NCBI GenBank assembly: GCA_016207515.1
Contig: JACQPN010000025.1
Coordinates: 186,001-250,000, forward strand
Direction: 5' to 3'
Source: Euryarchaeota archaeon
Lineage (GTDB): Archaea > Thermoplasmatota > SW-10-69-26 > JACQPN01
Length of the DNA: 64,000 nt
A program made the position numbers and the translations under genes. Shown here piece after piece: positions 5,322-43,002 of this stretch; the stretch's first letter is position 1, and each line of letters starts with the position of its first letter. The notes under the pieces are model-generated. The model was not told where the DNA came from and ran no database searches. It saw only the letters and a list, made by a program, of their open reading frames with translations.

Positions 5322-6314
5322 ATGATTATCTCGAGGACCCCGTATCGGATTTCGTTCTTCGGAGGTGGGAGTGATTACCCTGCCTGGTATCTCCGGGAAG
5401 GCGGCGTCGTCTTGTCAACAACGATAGACAAGTACTGCTACATTTCGTGCCGCTACCTGCCGCCCTTCTTCAACATAAAGCACAGGATCGTGTGGTCTCA
5501 TATCGAGACGGTGACGACACTTAAGGACATCTTGCATCCAGCCGTCCGCGAATGTCTGAAGTACATGGGTTTCGACGACGCGCTCGGTCTCGAAATTCAT
5601 CACCAAGGTGACCTCCCGGCGAGAAGCGGAATGGGCTCCAGCTCATCGTTTTCCGTGGGATTGATCCACGCGCTCACGGCCCTTCGCGGCCAGACGATTG
5701 GAAAGCACGAACTGGCGCTGAAAGCAATCGAGCTCGAGCAGAATGTGATGAAAGACAGCGTTGGGGCGCAAGATCAAGTCGCGGCCGCCCACGGTGGACT
5801 AAACCGGATACGGTTTCTCAAGTCAGGAAAGATCGACGTTGAACCTGTGAAGGTCGCCCAAGATCGCCACAAGGAACTTGAATCGAACTTGATCATGCTC
5901 TACACCGGCATGGTCCGCACGGCGTCGGACGTTGCCAAGGAGGTTTCGTCCAATCTCGAAAGGAAGAGCGAATCCGTGCTACGCATGATGGATATGGCGG
6001 AAGAGGGCGCAGCGATCCTTGCGGGCAAAGCCTCCGTCGATGACTTCGGGGCCCTGCTCGACGAGGCCTGGCAATTGAAACGAGGCCTCGCCGAAGCGGT
6101 ATCGAATGACGTCATCGACGGGGTGTACAGGACAGCAAAGGCAAACGGCGCGCTTGGCGGAAAACTGCTTGGCGCAGGCGCCGGAGGGTTCATGCTCTTC
6201 TACATTCCCCCTGGCAAGCAGAGGAACGTGCAACGAGCACTTAGTCAGTACCTATGGGTGCCTTTCTCGTTCGAGTCTACTGGAAGTTCGATCATCGCGA
6301 CCGACGGCGCCTAA
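5322..6314 (+). CDS. GHMP sugar kinase, heptose 7-phosphate kinase-like
   Basis: 330 aa. It begins RTPYRISFFGGGSDYP, the N-terminal signature of the GHMP kinases annotated as D-glycero-D-manno-heptose 7-phosphate kinase (HddA-like). The ATP-binding GHMP motif is LPARSGMGSSSS at residues 98-109, and the C-terminal substrate loop is LGGKLLGAGAGGF near residue 280. It would phosphorylate C1 of a sugar phosphate before nucleotide transfer. The companions normally needed for GDP-heptose (isomerase GmhA, phosphatase GmhB, guanylyltransferase HddC) are not in the window. The exact sugar is therefore unproven; another 6- or 7-carbon sugar phosphate remains possible. Confidence 0.78.
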   Translation: MIISRTPYRISFFGGGSDYPAWYLREGGVVLSTTIDKYCYISCRYLPPFFNIKHRIVWSHIETVTTLKDILHPAVRECLKYMGFDDALGLEIHHQGDLPARSGMGSSSSFSVGLIHALTALRGQTIGKHELALKAIELEQNVMKDSVGAQDQVAAAHGGLNRIRFLKSGKIDVEPVKVAQDRHKELESNLIMLYTGMVRTASDVAKEVSSNLERKSESVLRMMDMAEEGAAILAGKASVDDFGALLDEAWQLKRGLAEAVSNDVIDGVYRTAKANGALGGKLLGAGAGGFMLFYIPPGKQRNVQRALSQYLWVPFSFESTGSSIIATDGA

Positions 6315-6358
6315 CCGGCTGCGGTTTACACAAACTCACACTCTCCCGAGGAAAGAAA

Positions 6359-7360
6359 ATGACCCGATTCAAGAAAATCCTGGTGACTGGGGCGTCCGGC
6401 GTTGCGGGCAGCGGACTGAAAGCCATTGCCAAGGAATATGAGGAAAATGAATTCACCTTCCTCGCATCCCGCGATTGCGACCTGACGGACCCGCAGGCCG
6501 TGGACACCCTTTTCGCAAGGCTGAGACCCGACGCGGTTTTACACATGGCCGCAATCTCTGGTGGAATCGGCCTTAGCACAAAACACCCGGCTACCCTCCT
6601 TCGCGACAACGTCCTCATGAATGTCAACGTCGTCGAGGCGGCTCGGAAATACGAAATAGAAAAAACCGTCATGTCTCTGTCGACAGGGATGTACTCTCCC
6701 AATGCGCCATTGCCAATAAAGGAGGATTACATCCACGATGGCCCCCCCCATTCGTCCAACTATAGCTACGCATTCGCTAAGCGCTTGGTCGATCCGATGA
6801 TTCGTGCTTGGCGATCAGAATTCGGCATGAACTTGATCGGCGTTGTCCCGAACGGGATATTTGGGGAGCACGACAATTTCAATTACGATGACGCTACCCT
6901 GACGCCAACACTCATAAGGAGGTTTTACGAGAATCGCGGAGGGGATAAGGCAATCGTAATGTGGGGTGACGGCTCGCCGCTTCGCGAAGTCACGTACGGG
7001 AAGGACATTGCCCGCGCCTATATGTGGTGCCTAGAGCACTACGATGAACCTCAAATTCTGCACATAGGTACGACAGAGGAACATTCAGTTCGGGAAATCG
7101 CCGAAATGCTGGCCGACATGTACGGGATCTCCCGCGAACGTCTAGAGTTCGACACGAGCAAACCCGCGGGCGTTTCGAGGAAGAGCACCGACAATTCCCG
7201 ATTCGTCAGGCTTAGCGACTTCAAGTACACTGCATATCGGACCGCCTTGGAGAACACCGTGCGCTGGTACGTGGAGACAAGCGAACGAAATCCAGCCAAC
7301 ATTCGCAAGGGGAGCAAGTTGTTCGTTCGCCCCGAGGTCGCGACGGGGAGATTGAGATGA
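6359..7360 (+). CDS. GDP-L-fucose synthase-like epimerase/reductase
   Basis: 333 aa from the ATG at 6359, which follows the purine-rich GAGGAAAGAAA; the frame opens 35 codons upstream, but that part overlaps the previous gene and looks non-coding. It is an extended SDR with GASGVAGSG near the N-terminus and a catalytic Y-A-F-A-K. The overall pattern HMAAISGGIG...NVLMNVNVVEAARKY resembles GMER/Fcl, which epimerises C3/C5 and reduces C4 of GDP-4-keto-6-deoxy sugars. A canonical Fcl is present separately at 32013, so this copy probably acts on another substrate. In Campylobacter a GMER homologue (DdahC/MlghC) reduces GDP-4-keto-6-deoxy-heptose, and that role fits the neighbours here (inference). 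An ATGA overlap leads into the next gene. Confidence 0.78.
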   Translation: MTRFKKILVTGASGVAGSGLKAIAKEYEENEFTFLASRDCDLTDPQAVDTLFARLRPDAVLHMAAISGGIGLSTKHPATLLRDNVLMNVNVVEAARKYEIEKTVMSLSTGMYSPNAPLPIKEDYIHDGPPHSSNYSYAFAKRLVDPMIRAWRSEFGMNLIGVVPNGIFGEHDNFNYDDATLTPTLIRRFYENRGGDKAIVMWGDGSPLREVTYGKDIARAYMWCLEHYDEPQILHIGTTEEHSVREIAEMLADMYGISRERLEFDTSKPAGVSRKSTDNSRFVRLSDFKYTAYRTALENTVRWYVETSERNPANIRKGSKLFVRPEVATGRLR

Positions 7361-37546: not shown

Positions 37547-37783
37547 ATGGCCCGCACAACGACCCTTAGCGACGACGCCTTCGCCATGCTTCGGCGCGAA
37601 AAAAGGGAGGGCGAGAGCGACAGCGACGTAGTGATCCGTCTTGTCCAGGCACTCCATTGGGAAAAAGACCCGATGAAATTCCTCGATACCCCTATCGAAT
37701 TCGACATGTCCCGCGAGGAGCATCTCGAGTTCATCCGAAAGATGAGGCAAGCGGATTCCGTCGATGGCGAGAAGGAGGAGTGA
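37547..37783 (+). CDS. vapB: VapB-type antitoxin
   Basis: 78 aa. The start TTTLSDDAFAMLRREKREGESDSDVVIRLV matches the archaeal VapB family (DUF217-like), whose N-terminus forms a ribbon-helix-helix DNA-binding and dimer region; the acidic C-terminal tail should neutralise the toxin. It is followed 3 bases later by the PIN-domain toxin. Such antitoxins normally repress their own promoter, here the TATA at 37514. Confidence 0.85.
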   Translation: MARTTTLSDDAFAMLRREKREGESDSDVVIRLVQALHWEKDPMKFLDTPIEFDMSREEHLEFIRKMRQADSVDGEKEE

Positions 37784-37786
37784 GAC

Positions 37787-38200
37787 GTGCCGGTCCTCGA
37801 CGCGACTTTCCTCATCGATTCCAAGCACAGGCCCGCATCCATCCGGCCCGCCCTGGCGCGCCTTCGCCAGTTGCCAGGCCCAATCTTCGTCCCCATGCAG
37901 GCGGCGATCGAGTATTGCGTCGGAGCGAGCGACGCCAACGCGGCGATCACAGACCTCGCGCTCTTTTTCGAACTCGTTCCCTGCGACACGCAGATTGTAC
38001 GCGAGGCCGCCAGCGTGGCAAGGGAGGCGCGAGAGCGCGGAAAAAACCTTTCCTGGTCGGACCTTCAGGTCGCAGCAACCGCCCGCTACTTCGGGACCTT
38101 CGTCGTAAGCACCGACAGGCGGGCATTCGGCCCGGATTCGGTGGTTCCCGCGTGGGACTATGAACGCGAAAAGGATCTGCCCGGAACCCACGAATCGTGA
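37787..38200 (+). CDS. vapC: VapC-type PIN-domain ribonuclease toxin
   Basis: 137 aa, GTG start with GGAGGAGTG directly upstream. PIN-domain acidic residues are in place: Asp5 in VLDATFLID, Glu near residue 42 (AAIEYCVG), Asp in LSWSDLQVAATA (about 94) and Asp in VSTDRRAFG (about 112). These bind Mg for RNA cleavage. It pairs with the antitoxin gene just before it. The module lies between the aIF1A remnant and the intact aIF1A gene and is transcribed against both. Confidence 0.88.
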   Translation: MPVLDATFLIDSKHRPASIRPALARLRQLPGPIFVPMQAAIEYCVGASDANAAITDLALFFELVPCDTQIVREAASVAREARERGKNLSWSDLQVAATARYFGTFVVSTDRRAFGPDSVVPAWDYEREKDLPGTHES

Positions 38201-39007: not shown

Positions 39008-40594
39008 TCAGACGATAGAAGGCGTAGACGCATCGCCCTTGGCCGGCACCGAACGCGCGCTCGCAGTCTCCGCCACCGTGACGAGGGCGTCGATGACCTT
39101 GTTACGGATCTCCGAAGCCACCACATAACCCGTCGGCCGCTCCGGGTGCGCCTTGACGATCCCACTCGACGCCAACCGCGACACGTGGAAGTTCACCGTG
39201 CTCTTCGCGAAATCGAGACGGCCCCGCATCTCCGCTTGCGTGATGCCGGGCTCAAGAAGCACAAGCTTCGCGATCTTGCGCCGGACCTCCGAATCGAAAG
39301 CGAGGATGTACCCCTTCTCATTGACACCAAACGAATTGTGGTTCTCGAAGAGACGAAGGAAACGACCCTTCCTCGCCAACTCGACATGGGCGTAATCGGC
39401 AAGCACACGAGAGTGATGAAGAGCGGTCTTGAAGTCGACGCCCAACAGACGCGCCGTGTCAGACACGGAGATTCCGGGGCTCTTCTTGATCAAGGCCAAC
39501 ATCTCTTGACGGATAGGGTTGTCCAGAATCTTGCGCTCATGGAGACGGCGGTAGAGGGCGAGAATCACGAGTGGAAAGCCCAACGTTGCGAAGAATACCA
39601 AGATTGGGGAAACCTGATCCGGTGAGCCCGGGGACACGGGGGCTCCGGCATTCGTGAATGGCACCAAAGCGGCCGTGTCTGACGCGACGGCCGGAGACCG
39701 AAATCGGTCATGCGACTGTGGAGCGACAGCCAAACCCTGCCGCGGTGGAATAGGCCATTTTCCGCCCTTGACATCGTCCCGAGAATCGGCGAAGATTGCG
39801 CCGTGACCAGAATCGTATTTCGCGGTGGAATCAGACGGCGCCGTGGAAACAGCCAGACCCACCTCATCGTACAGGACTGTCGCCGTTACATTTGGAAGAG
39901 CGGTTTGGGACGCGTTCTCCATCGCGGCCAGAGTTCGATCATTGCAACTGACCCATTCAGGTCCGACAGCTTCGCATAGCACATCCTCTGTTGCCGGGAG
40001 GAGGTCAAGATATGTGTCAGATGGACCGACGACGAACCCGTAGATCGGAAATGATACTCGCGTGTAGTTGATTGCGTGATCGTCATCATCCCACGCGGCG
40101 AAGTGCCAACGCGCGAACGCGGCGTCCTCTAGGGCGGAAGGCGAGTCGATCCACAATCCCGATCGATTCGTCGTTACATCCAAACCTGAATTAGCGCGTA
40201 TTGTTGACCTTCTCACATCATCCGAGGTCGCATATGTCATAAAGAGCGGGTTTCCAGTTCCCGCGTGTTCGAGGTCGATCTCCTTCGATACTTGGACCGC
40301 TGGGATTAACGGGGCCGCAACGAATCCCTTCATGGCATTAACGTCGTGAGATGCCTCTAGCTCGTCGTCGCCGGGCTCACTGGTTTCACGCCCCGCGTAC
40401 GAAAACAGGCAATCTGACCGGACGTCTTCGATTGAGCAATCGCCCGGGCGCCCGTTTTCGACCTCCAATCCGAGGACTCCCGCAATGCCAGCGGAGACTT
40501 CACCAAAGGCCGTTCCTTGTGCCATGAGGAACAAACCGACAACAAGGGCGAGGGAGCGCACGATGAAAACCCCTAGAATTGCGGGCGTTTGCAT
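39008..40594 (-). CDS. membrane-anchored winged-helix regulator with extracellular domain
   Basis: 528 aa. An N-terminal hydrophobic segment (residues 6-26) is followed by about 320 residues of predicted extracellular sequence with no recognised domain, one membrane segment at about 338-355 (VFFATLGFPLVILALY), and a cytoplasmic tail with two winged-helix domains (MLALIKKSPGISVSDTARLLGVDFKTALHHSRVL, and LVLLEPGITQAEMRGRLDFAKSTVNFHVSRL; each split here only for reference). Such one-component sensor-regulators are common in Thermoplasmata. It probably reads an outside signal and controls transcription directly from the membrane. Its start overlaps the end of the small secreted-protein gene by 22 bases, pointing to one operon. 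Targets unknown. Confidence 0.75.
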   Translation of the reverse strand: MQTPAILGVFIVRSLALVVGLFLMAQGTAFGEVSAGIAGVLGLEVENGRPGDCSIEDVRSDCLFSYAGRETSEPGDDELEASHDVNAMKGFVAAPLIPAVQVSKEIDLEHAGTGNPLFMTYATSDDVRRSTIRANSGLDVTTNRSGLWIDSPSALEDAAFARWHFAAWDDDDHAINYTRVSFPIYGFVVGPSDTYLDLLPATEDVLCEAVGPEWVSCNDRTLAAMENASQTALPNVTATVLYDEVGLAVSTAPSDSTAKYDSGHGAIFADSRDDVKGGKWPIPPRQGLAVAPQSHDRFRSPAVASDTAALVPFTNAGAPVSPGSPDQVSPILVFFATLGFPLVILALYRRLHERKILDNPIRQEMLALIKKSPGISVSDTARLLGVDFKTALHHSRVLADYAHVELARKGRFLRLFENHNSFGVNEKGYILAFDSEVRRKIAKLVLLEPGITQAEMRGRLDFAKSTVNFHVSRLASSGIVKAHPERPTGYVVASEIRNKVIDALVTVAETASARSVPAKGDASTPSIV

Positions 40595-40830
40595 TCTTCA
40601 TTAAGTTTACAAGGCACGTAAACCGGGCAGGGACGTGAAATGTCCTTGGCGCATGCCGCGGCCGCCTTGACGCATGCCGCAGGATTGAAAGCAGGAATCT
40701 TGCCGACGCCACACGTGGAGGCGACCGAACCCGTGTTTCGCCCGTCTTCTGCCGTCGCCGGTGGCGCTACAGCCGCAAGAACGATTAACAAACATGCCAC
40801 ACTGCTCCAAACCAGCGTTCCTCCCGACAT
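40573..40830 (-). CDS. small Cys-rich secreted protein
   Basis: 85 aa from the ATG at 40830; the 14 codons upstream are less likely. It has a signal peptide (residues about 5-27, VWSSVACLLIVLAAVAPPATA) with a mature part of about 60 residues bearing six cysteines (STCGVG, PAACVK, AAACAK, RPCPV, VPCKL, EECKR), enough for three disulfides. No family is recognised. The gene overlaps the start of the winged-helix sensor gene on the same strand, so it could be a ligand or partner of its outer domain. The evidence is composition, signal peptide and position only. Confidence 0.5.
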   Translation of the reverse strand: MSGGTLVWSSVACLLIVLAAVAPPATAEDGRNTGSVASTCGVGKIPAFNPAACVKAAAACAKDISRPCPVYVPCKLNEECKRPQF

Positions 40831-40914
40831 AGAACCAACCACGACACCAGGCGTCGTATCACGCCAAAACACTTTCGTCTACACAGGGCCCAAGGTTCGA
40901 CCCGTTTGGGGAAA

Positions 40915-40923
40915 AGTTTAAAT
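40915..40923 (+). promoter_or_regulatory. TATA box of the subtilase lipoprotein gene
   Basis: AGTTTAAAT, with a purine-rich GGGGAAA just upstream as a candidate BRE, is centred 20 bases before the ATG at 40939. This predicts a leaderless transcript and fixes that ATG over the longer upstream frame. Confidence 0.6.
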
Positions 40924-40938: not shown

Positions 40939-42309
40939 ATGAACCGTTCCATAATGCCGATAAGCGCGAAGGCTCATCGACGCAGGATGAGGCACCCGAC
41001 AGCGGCGCTTCTAGCCGTCCTAATCATATCTGGATGCGTGGCCCCTGGTACACCAACGTCAGACGCGCCTTCGGGGGTCACCGTAGGCGCGATCAGGGAG
41101 GTCGGCCCGATTGTAGTAGCAATTCTCGACACCGGCATCGTACCGTACCACGAATTCTTCTCGGCTTCCTACTCGCCGGCGGCCGCGTCGGGGGCGCGAG
41201 CGCGGGCCGTCCTTTCCGGCGCGAACGCAACCACGCTGGAAGTGTCGCTCGATTCGACGCTTACGTTCGAGCAACGATTAGAAAAAGATCGCGATTTGTG
41301 GAACAGCCTAAAGAATGACACCTTGTATGAATTCGCCGGAACCGGGATTTTCGCCATTTCACTGCCGTCGATTTACAACCCTAGCGACGCCCAGCGACCC
41401 GTGTATCCGCCGGAATACCGGCCGGTGTTCGACGAAAACGGCCACGGCACTGCTATGAGCTATCTGGCACGCACGGCGTTTCCGAACGCAACCGTAGTCA
41501 TGATCAAGATCCCAAACGCCTACGCGACAAACCTCCCGGAGGTCATCGGCAACACGGCGGCGGCCCTACGGTGGGTGAGGGACCAGCAATGGATCGACAT
41601 AGCCTCGTTATCATTCGCCATCCCAGGGAATCCATCGACGCCGTGGGATTCCGAGCTTCGTGATTCCATCCAATCGTTAGGCGAGAGCGGAAAACTTCTC
41701 TTCGTCGCGGCCGGGAACGATCCTTCGCCGTCATACGCATCGGTCTACCACGCGCCACCTGCAATCATTGTGGGCGGAGTTCACACTAATCAGAGCGGCG
41801 ATGACGCCACAACGTCTAGAGCGACGAGTTTCGTCGCAGAGGACGTCGCCCTCGTAGTGGACGCGTATTCTGCGAACAGATTCGTCTTGGTTTCCGGCAC
41901 CAGCATCGCCACCCCGTTGGTCGCCGGAACCGCTGCGCTGCTCCTACAGGAAATTCATGCGAACGCGACAAGGGGCCATGCCCAAGAGGGTGCGATGGTC
42001 CTTGAAGCGTTAAACGTCACCGCGAACTACTGGGGGCCACGCGACTGGACGCCTCGACCGGGGGCCTATGAAGATCCCATCGACACTGTCTTTAGTGGGA
42101 CTAGTGCCCCCATCCTCCCCACGCCCTGGGTCCAGATGGGCTGGGGCTACGTCGGTCCCGAGATCGTCCCCGCTGCCGTCGCCTACCTCAAGGGTGAGTC
42201 GACACCCGCGCCGAAGCCATCGGAGGCCATCCAGTACATGGAGACGACGTACGCGCTTCGTGAGGCGTATTGGTCTCAACGGGGCGGCGAATCGCCCATT
42301 TCTTGGTAG
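40939..42309 (+). CDS. subtilisin-like serine protease, lipoprotein
   Basis: 456 aa. Start set by the TATA at 40915 (leaderless). After a basic N-terminus there is a lipoprotein signal ending in a lipobox (LIISGC, Cys about residue 33). The peptidase S8 triad is complete: Asp in VAILDTGIV, His in ENGHGTAMS, Ser in SGTSIATPLVAG; the oxyanion Asn is in VAAGNDPS. There is no clear propeptide of the usual length between lipobox and catalytic domain. It should be tethered outside the cell and cleave proteins or peptides. It stands alone on the plus strand, with the VapBC-2 module following. Confidence 0.88.
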   Translation: MNRSIMPISAKAHRRRMRHPTAALLAVLIISGCVAPGTPTSDAPSGVTVGAIREVGPIVVAILDTGIVPYHEFFSASYSPAAASGARARAVLSGANATTLEVSLDSTLTFEQRLEKDRDLWNSLKNDTLYEFAGTGIFAISLPSIYNPSDAQRPVYPPEYRPVFDENGHGTAMSYLARTAFPNATVVMIKIPNAYATNLPEVIGNTAAALRWVRDQQWIDIASLSFAIPGNPSTPWDSELRDSIQSLGESGKLLFVAAGNDPSPSYASVYHAPPAIIVGGVHTNQSGDDATTSRATSFVAEDVALVVDAYSANRFVLVSGTSIATPLVAGTAALLLQEIHANATRGHAQEGAMVLEALNVTANYWGPRDWTPRPGAYEDPIDTVFSGTSAPILPTPWVQMGWGYVGPEIVPAAVAYLKGESTPAPKPSEAIQYMETTYALREAYWSQRGGESPISW

Positions 42310-42343: not shown

Positions 42344-42613
42344 ATGGCAAGTAATAATCCCGAGGTTGTCCGAGTCACGGAGAAGGGCCAGGCGATCATC
42401 CCGTCAAGGTTTGGAGCCCTCTTCGGCATCGGGGCACCTGGCTTCGTGAGTTTTCGGATCGTCAGCGGAAGATTGGTTGTCGAGCCGCTGCCGACTCCTG
42501 CCAAGATGAAGGGCTTCATGAAGGCCGACTTTGGCCGAGAGTCGGGCGTGGCACTGCTTCGAAGGGAACGCGGCGACGATGAGGCGCGCGCCAGGCGGAA
42601 GTTCCGCCTGTGA
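42344..42613 (+). CDS. vapB: AbrB/MazE-type antitoxin of a VapBC module
   Basis: 89 aa. The core VVRVTEKGQAIIPSRFGALFGI is a swapped-hairpin AbrB (SpoVT) DNA-binding domain, in which the phrase T-x-K-G-Q-x-x-I-P is diagnostic. The C-terminal tail is charged and would bind the toxin. The stop overlaps the GTG of the PIN-domain gene. Antitoxin class differs from the ribbon-helix-helix antitoxin of the module at 37547. Confidence 0.85.
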   Translation: MASNNPEVVRVTEKGQAIIPSRFGALFGIGAPGFVSFRIVSGRLVVEPLPTPAKMKGFMKADFGRESGVALLRRERGDDEARARRKFRL

Positions 42614-43002
42614 TCGTCTTCGACGCGGAGCCGCTTGTTGCGTTCTTTCTCGACGAGCCGGGGGCCGATCGGATCGAGACTTTCCTCGACGAGGTGCGTG
42701 CCGGCAGGGCCAGCGCGGCCTGCAGTGTCGTGAACCTGAGCGAAGTCAGATACGTGCTTGCGCGGAAGAACAAGGGGAGAGCGCGTGAGGCGCTCACGTG
42801 GCTCCAGGCGGCTGGTGTAGAGGCCGCCGACGCCATTGAAACTTGGGACCATGCTGCCGACATCAAGGCGGAGCACGCTTCGATCAGTCTCGGCGACGCT
42901 TTTGCCCTCGCCACGGCAGCCGAACGTGGGGCCACTCTCATCGCCTGGGACGAGGACCAGACGTCGGTCGCCAAGGCCATCGGCGTCAAGGTCCGGAAGT
43001 GA
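42610..43002 (+). CDS. vapC: VapC-type PIN-domain ribonuclease toxin
   Basis: 130 aa, GTG start overlapping the antitoxin stop (GTGA). The catalytic acids are Asp5 (VFDAEPLV), Glu45 (NLSEVRY), Asp96 (SLGDAFALA) and Asp114-116 (AWDEDQ). It matches the usual VapC length and motif spacing. It would cleave tRNA or rRNA when unbound. Confidence 0.88.
   Translation: MIVFDAEPLVAFFLDEPGADRIETFLDEVRAGRASAACSVVNLSEVRYVLARKNKGRAREALTWLQAAGVEAADAIETWDHAADIKAEHASISLGDAFALATAAERGATLIAWDEDQTSVAKAIGVKVRK

Follow-up and report, generated by a model that had tools for sequence, protein, structure and literature searches.

Is a small cysteine-rich open frame that runs into the start of a gene for a membrane-bound winged-helix regulator a true gene, and could its product be the ligand of that regulator? 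The question is raised by a locus in a 64,000-nucleotide stretch of DNA from an archaeon of the Thermoplasmatota (the window). An earlier note had described, on the minus strand, a small secreted cysteine-rich protein gene that overlaps the regulator gene by 22 bases and had suggested that the two products form a signal–receptor pair; both genes and the overlap are present in the sequence exactly where it had put them (Table 1). A third part, absent from the earlier note, lies head-to-head with the small gene: a subtilase gene for which 40906 or 40954 are alternative starts. The three genes are one instance of a recurring unit that consists of a divergent lipoprotein-type S8 subtilase, a small peptide with an even number of cysteines and a membrane regulator with a double winged helix. 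The anatomy of this three-gene module is near certain.

Table 1. Parts of the module in the window and further copies in the same genome and in two genomes of the same order (G001 and G004).
Feature	Position	Strand	Basis or remark
Small secreted Cys-rich peptide gene (85 aa)	40573..40830	-	ATG at 40830; paralogue in L028, equivalents in 11/11 related loci
Overlap of peptide and regulator reading frames, 22 bases	40573..40594	-	Sequence
Predicted mature peptide (58 aa, 6 Cys, net charge +3)	40576..40749	-	ATA/E signal-peptidase site, simple rule
Membrane winged-helix regulator (528 aa)	39008..40594	-	ATG at 40594; Pfam and hydropathy
Regulator ectodomain, about residues 28-328, variable between copies	39611..40513	-	No Pfam match; family of 11 loci
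Regulator cytoplasmic double winged helix, residues 348-505	39080..39553	-	89-95% identity across four copies (window, L028, L029, L030 fragment)
Divergent S8 subtilase, lipobox-like SGC	40939..42309	+	Pfam Peptidase_S8, E 2e-20
Constant C-terminal 59 residues of subtilase	42103..42279	+	92-95% identity across four copies (window, L028, L029, L048)
Shared element GGRAAAAGYTTAWA	40909..40922	+	Four perfect genome copies, one per close module
L028	C19: 70-74 kb		Complete module
L029	C19: 117-120 kb		Complete module
L048	C12		Protease and peptide; regulator frame has its stop within the ectodomain, close to the end of the contig
L030	Start of C19		Regulator fragment
L049	C5		Fifth, more distant module
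L051	Genome G001, same order		One module
L063, L075, L076	Genome G004, same order		Three modules
L077, L078	Genome G004		Peptide-regulator pairs, no protease nearby

According to hydropathy and Pfam, the regulator begins with a hydrophobic stretch, followed by an ectodomain of about 300 residues, one transmembrane helix near residues 329–347 and two winged helices. The latter match HTH_24 in two stretches (E 1.1e-9) and HTH_20 slightly short of its curated cut-off (E 1.8e-5), and ten ectodomains compared with Pfam gave no match. The small protein has a hydrophobic N-terminus followed by its predicted signal-peptidase site, with all six cysteines named in the table behind it; an alternative in-frame GTG at 40872 would extend it to 99 aa.

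That the small frame is open merely by chance was considered because its sequence is poorly conserved. Apart from the paralogue in L028 (E 6e-8, homology search), a search of 60 relatives with the window peptide gave a single weak match beyond its own genome (G008, E 0.003), which is loose, belongs to a different family and was not accepted as a homologue. A further match in its own genome (C23, E 0.08) was rejected, as that frame lies inside a large unrelated protein. Pfam, NCBIfam and PADLOC returned nothing usable for the peptide, a profile search of the PDB with the peptides gave only chance-level matches, and both structure predictions were of low confidence. Frames of this kind are rare, however. 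The small gene is the sole frame in the window with a signal-like start, a length of 55–130 aa and at least four cysteines behind the signal; the same rule yields a mean of 0.6 frames per 64 kb in 20 dinucleotide shuffles of the window and four frames in 137,016 bases of 17 other loci. Together with the even cysteine number and the pairing with the regulator described below, this makes a chance frame so improbable that it is rejected.

Across the module family, the predicted mature peptides are about 42–62 aa long and contain four or six cysteines, never an odd number, at all 11 loci, each behind a predicted signal-peptidase site of the form A/V/G-x-A (11/11). Their predicted net charge is −3 or lower in eight of the 11 and positive in only two. 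Identity with the window copy is 24–32%, and the peptides have little else in common. Conservation of the peptide thus lies in its size, its export signal and its even number of cysteines; its sequence is not conserved.

Conservation of the pair in relatives was among the checks that the earlier note had proposed. A small secreted cysteine-rich gene adjoins the regulator at every one of the 11 loci of the ectodomain family (ten identified by script, L063 by direct reading), always directly upstream of it or overlapping it; at L075 a longer open frame ends in the peptide sequence. Among other membrane winged-helix regulators, a small secreted gene with at least four cysteines was found at 0/18 and 0/41, in total 0/59, these controls being higher-scoring relatives from related genomes and not a random sample. 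The set of 41 regulators comes from the regions around 40 listed places, two more having been left out as too near a contig end. The contrast is not entirely clean, since two controls have a larger secreted frame upstream (L086, 179 aa with four cysteines; L094, 178 aa with eight), and small secreted frames with zero to two cysteines occur at the controls L080, L081, L090, L121 and L150. The pairing described in the earlier note is therefore conserved, but the unit is larger than a pair: the peptide is present at 11/11 loci and a divergent S8 subtilase at 9/11.

The larger secreted frames (L086, 3125–3661; L094, 3083–3616) lie immediately 5′ of membrane winged-helix regulators. Those at L080 (3195–4961) and L081 (719–2347), both in genome G003, have a small secreted frame with two cysteines just upstream and perhaps represent a second, two-cysteine type of pair.

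A profile of the ectodomain finds the family in three of 389 genomes of the phylum, at a minimum of 11 places when the best five candidates per genome are scored; on that basis, five lie in the window genome, one in G001 and five in G004. Three further places in the window genome (2.67 Mb, 25 contigs) encode close paralogues of the half of the regulator that binds DNA. A single gene split by the assembly was considered as the origin of the cut regulator on C12 and the L030 fragment on C19, and was rejected; their ends do not overlap and both contain stops, so they are counted as two incomplete copies. The L048 regulator (6068–6544) has its stop inside the ectodomain about 100 bases from the contig end, which may reflect decay, truncation or an assembly effect. 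In a search for the regulator class in seven genomes, membrane winged-helix regulators were strongly expanded in G001 and G004, with 59 and 54 profile matches compared with 23 in the window genome.

S8 subtilases of the Thermoplasmatota are also close to the module: its protease belongs to S8, and its C-terminal end is shared with homologues in 28 of 97 genomes. Motifs for the catalytic Asp and His are present in 9/9 module proteases and that for Ser in 8/9, the pattern having missed L076. No regulator with the ectodomain stands beside S8 homologues at the loci examined outside the order. At L054, L055 and L070, also outside the order, protease homologues occur in tandem pairs and have neither peptide nor regulator. 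Related proteases in named records belong, bar one, to Thermoplasmata or other archaeal metagenome-assembled genomes. The L068 record (Centralia_MAG_189) is titled Proteobacteria yet bears the module of the archaeal genome G004, and its title is apparently wrong. In viral contigs, none of 45 pattern-matching stretches encodes a relative of the protease.

Among the close copies, the two outer ends of the module are nearly constant (Table 1) and the centre is not: identity is 17–29% for the ectodomains, 28–33% for the mature peptides and 29–44% for the catalytic parts. Silent sites of the peptide, ectodomain and catalytic domain are saturated in these copies. To tell this pattern apart from protein-level selection, the comparison was confined to four-fold degenerate sites whose amino acid is unchanged between copies. 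A lower fraction of these sites differs in the protease end than in its catalytic part in all six pairs (p 0.04 to 4e-13); in the strongest pair, 5 of 33 four-fold sites differ in the end and 54 of 60 in the catalytic part (p 4e-13). In the regulator, the winged helices likewise differ less than the ectodomain in 6/6 pairs, with p<0.05 in only two of the six. The C5 module, which has winged helices of another kind, shows no significant four-fold contrast in either gene when compared with each of the four close copies. DNA outside both gene ends is unrelated between close modules. Within G004 the contrast between constant ends and variable centre is absent, so that it is seen in the window genome only.

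In the window copy, the winged helices have a GC content at third codon positions (GC3) of 0.76 and the protease end one of 0.79, compared with 0.56–0.67 in the centre and an average of 0.72 in 40 long frames of the window; this contrast is weaker in L028 and L029. Across eight modules, the distance matrix of the ectodomain agrees with that of the catalytic part (rho 0.45, p 0.017) and also with that of the winged helices (rho 0.46, p 0.009), whereas the catalytic part shows no agreement with the protease end (rho 0.03). Most simply, the ends would be kept alike by gene conversion or used as crossover sites, and the centre would be exchanged or evolve fast.

The four close modules also share a 14-base element, GGRAAAAGYTTAWA, located between peptide and protease and oriented toward the protease. 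It has exactly four perfect copies in the 2.67 Mb genome, and the reversed element, used as a control, has zero matches. The pattern was derived from the module sites, which makes those four matches a matter of construction but not its absence from the rest of the genome. The element is missing from the C5 module. Core promoters of archaea have a BRE/TATA layout. With one mismatch, five further copies of GGRAAAAGYTTAWA are found in the genome, partly before ordinary genes, and the element is therefore at least partly a core promoter and may be nothing beyond one. It could also be the site that the winged helices common to these modules recognise.

A ligand–receptor mechanism, in which the peptide would be the ligand of the regulator ectodomain and the protease would serve in peptide processing or turnover, is the favoured reading, at a probability that comes close to an even chance without reaching it. 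The small peptide would be exported and disulfide-bonded, and the surface subtilase would perhaps trim or clear it. As cognate ligand, the peptide would bind the ectodomain, and binding would be passed on to the winged helices by the regulator's only transmembrane helix. These in turn may target the shared element, which lies between the two divergent genes, in which case the module would control itself and several modules would feed one output. Protease, peptide and ectodomain would together form a specificity cassette, and exchange or gene conversion at the ends would keep the output the same. For this mechanism speak the pairing at 11/11 loci as opposed to 0/59 controls, the near contact or overlap of peptide and regulator genes in all loci, the even cysteine number and predicted signal-peptidase site at 11/11, the constant ends around a variable centre, the four-fold comparison in the protease, the presence of the shared element once per close module, and a layout that is the same as in the agr hypervariable region as described in PMC3673130. 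Against it stand the low confidence of both structure predictions, the restriction of the contrast to one genome, the regulator four-fold comparison with p<0.05 in 2/6 pairs, the possibility that the element is a core promoter, and the non-random controls. A wider version is tentative and somewhat unlikely: an archaeal peptide-pheromone system in which several protease–peptide–ectodomain cassettes would control one regulon via the near-identical winged helices and recombine at the constant ends, as a one-component, subtilase-based counterpart of agr and ComQXPA of independent origin.

Secreted Cys-rich peptides are commonly protease inhibitors. The unit could thus instead control its protease, with the peptide acting as inhibitor, chaperone or test substrate of the subtilase and the regulator sensing free peptide or protease activity and tuning protease production in envelope quality control or nutrient scavenging. 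The divergent subtilase at 9/11 loci and the direction of the shared element toward the protease gene fit this explanation. It is nevertheless unlikely, as two G004 peptide–regulator pairs have no subtilase nearby, relatives of the subtilase in other parts of the phylum are accompanied by neither peptide nor regulator, and the peptides match no inhibitor family. The tighter association of peptide with ectodomain (11/11) than with protease (9/11) favours ligand–receptor over protease–inhibitor.

A variable secreted peptide with a variable partner in several copies is also reminiscent of conflict systems, and hypervariable modules of archaea have been discussed in that sense (PMC8416519). The peptide might then be a secreted toxin that the subtilase matures and the ectodomain detects or protects against, in antimicrobial activity or kin discrimination. 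This seems quite improbable: the mostly acidic charge of the mature peptides argues against a typical membrane-active antimicrobial, no separate immunity gene is seen at the module, and PADLOC gave no match, although a new toxin would escape matching. Still more doubtful is a non-diffusible peptide that would serve the ectodomain permanently as a small subunit, either co-receptor or folding partner, with something else as the ligand. In its favour, the peptide gene strictly adjoins or overlaps that of the regulator, and the peptide varies together with the ectodomain; however, each peptide is predicted to carry a signal-peptidase site and lacks a second membrane segment, and fusion or higher conservation would presumably be seen more often.

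The module offers a candidate ligand–receptor–protease set with 11 candidate cognate pairs, predicted ectodomain specificity and one shared DNA site, and it would make archaeal peptide communication, or a new kind of protease control, directly testable. To our knowledge, no receptor has been identified for any ribosomally made peptide signal of archaea. A literature search, with subscription journals and preprints mostly outside its scope, found no description of such an archaeal module or of an archaeal peptide signal with its receptor.

The constant–variable–constant layout is that of bacterial pherotype loci, here within one genome and with unrelated parts. In staphylococcal agr (AgrB–AgrD–AgrC), the hypervariable region is described as running from the 3′ part of agrB through agrD into the 5′ part of agrC (PMC3673130). 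The module resembles it in having an exported peptide (here predicted) and a variable centre of enzyme, peptide and sensor half next to a constant output half (PMC3673130), in this case in one genome only. It differs in its one-component winged-helix receptor, S8 subtilase and Cys-rich peptide, without AgrB, kinase or response regulator, and its copies stand side by side in one genome, whereas agr variants are alleles between strains. ComQXPA of Bacillus is described as a polymorphic signal–receptor locus with specificity groups (PMC4408185), and the module is similarly polymorphic in enzyme, peptide and receptor, as reported for ComQXPA in that source. Unlike ComQXPA, it contains neither the prenyltransferase ComQ nor a two-component pair, and the parts are unrelated as far as tested. 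In Pfam and NCBIfam, the regulator has no kinase match, and the enzyme encoded next to the peptide is classed as an S8 subtilase, not as an AgrB-type protease or ComQ. The lack of histidine kinase, AgrB and ComQ means that the module is not a member of the agr or ComQXPA systems.

Closer in architecture are the transmembrane transcription regulators (TTRs), which are defined in the cited text by a DNA-binding domain and at least one transmembrane region in one protein (PMC10269533). With its winged helices (Pfam) and transmembrane segment (hydropathy), the regulator falls under this definition, and like TTRs such as the archaeal ArnR, as presented in the cited sources, it is a one-component membrane-anchored regulator (PMC10269533; PMC6396743). 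Unlike these, the module has a dedicated secreted peptide gene, a divergent subtilase and a large variable ectodomain. The nearest archaeal hypervariable module among those compared is VARTIG of the Thermococcales, likewise a gene module with a hypervariable part, which is attributed to recombination in the source as cited (PMC8416519). The VARTIG core, as outlined there, is a large Ig-domain protein, of which the module has none, and includes no peptide, S8 protease or membrane regulator.

VapBC-like toxin–antitoxin pairs lie on both flanks of the module in the window, at 37547–38200 (+) and 42344–43002 (+). The PIN domain at 37787–38200 is confirmed by Pfam, and the pair at 42344–43002 is named from sequence alone.
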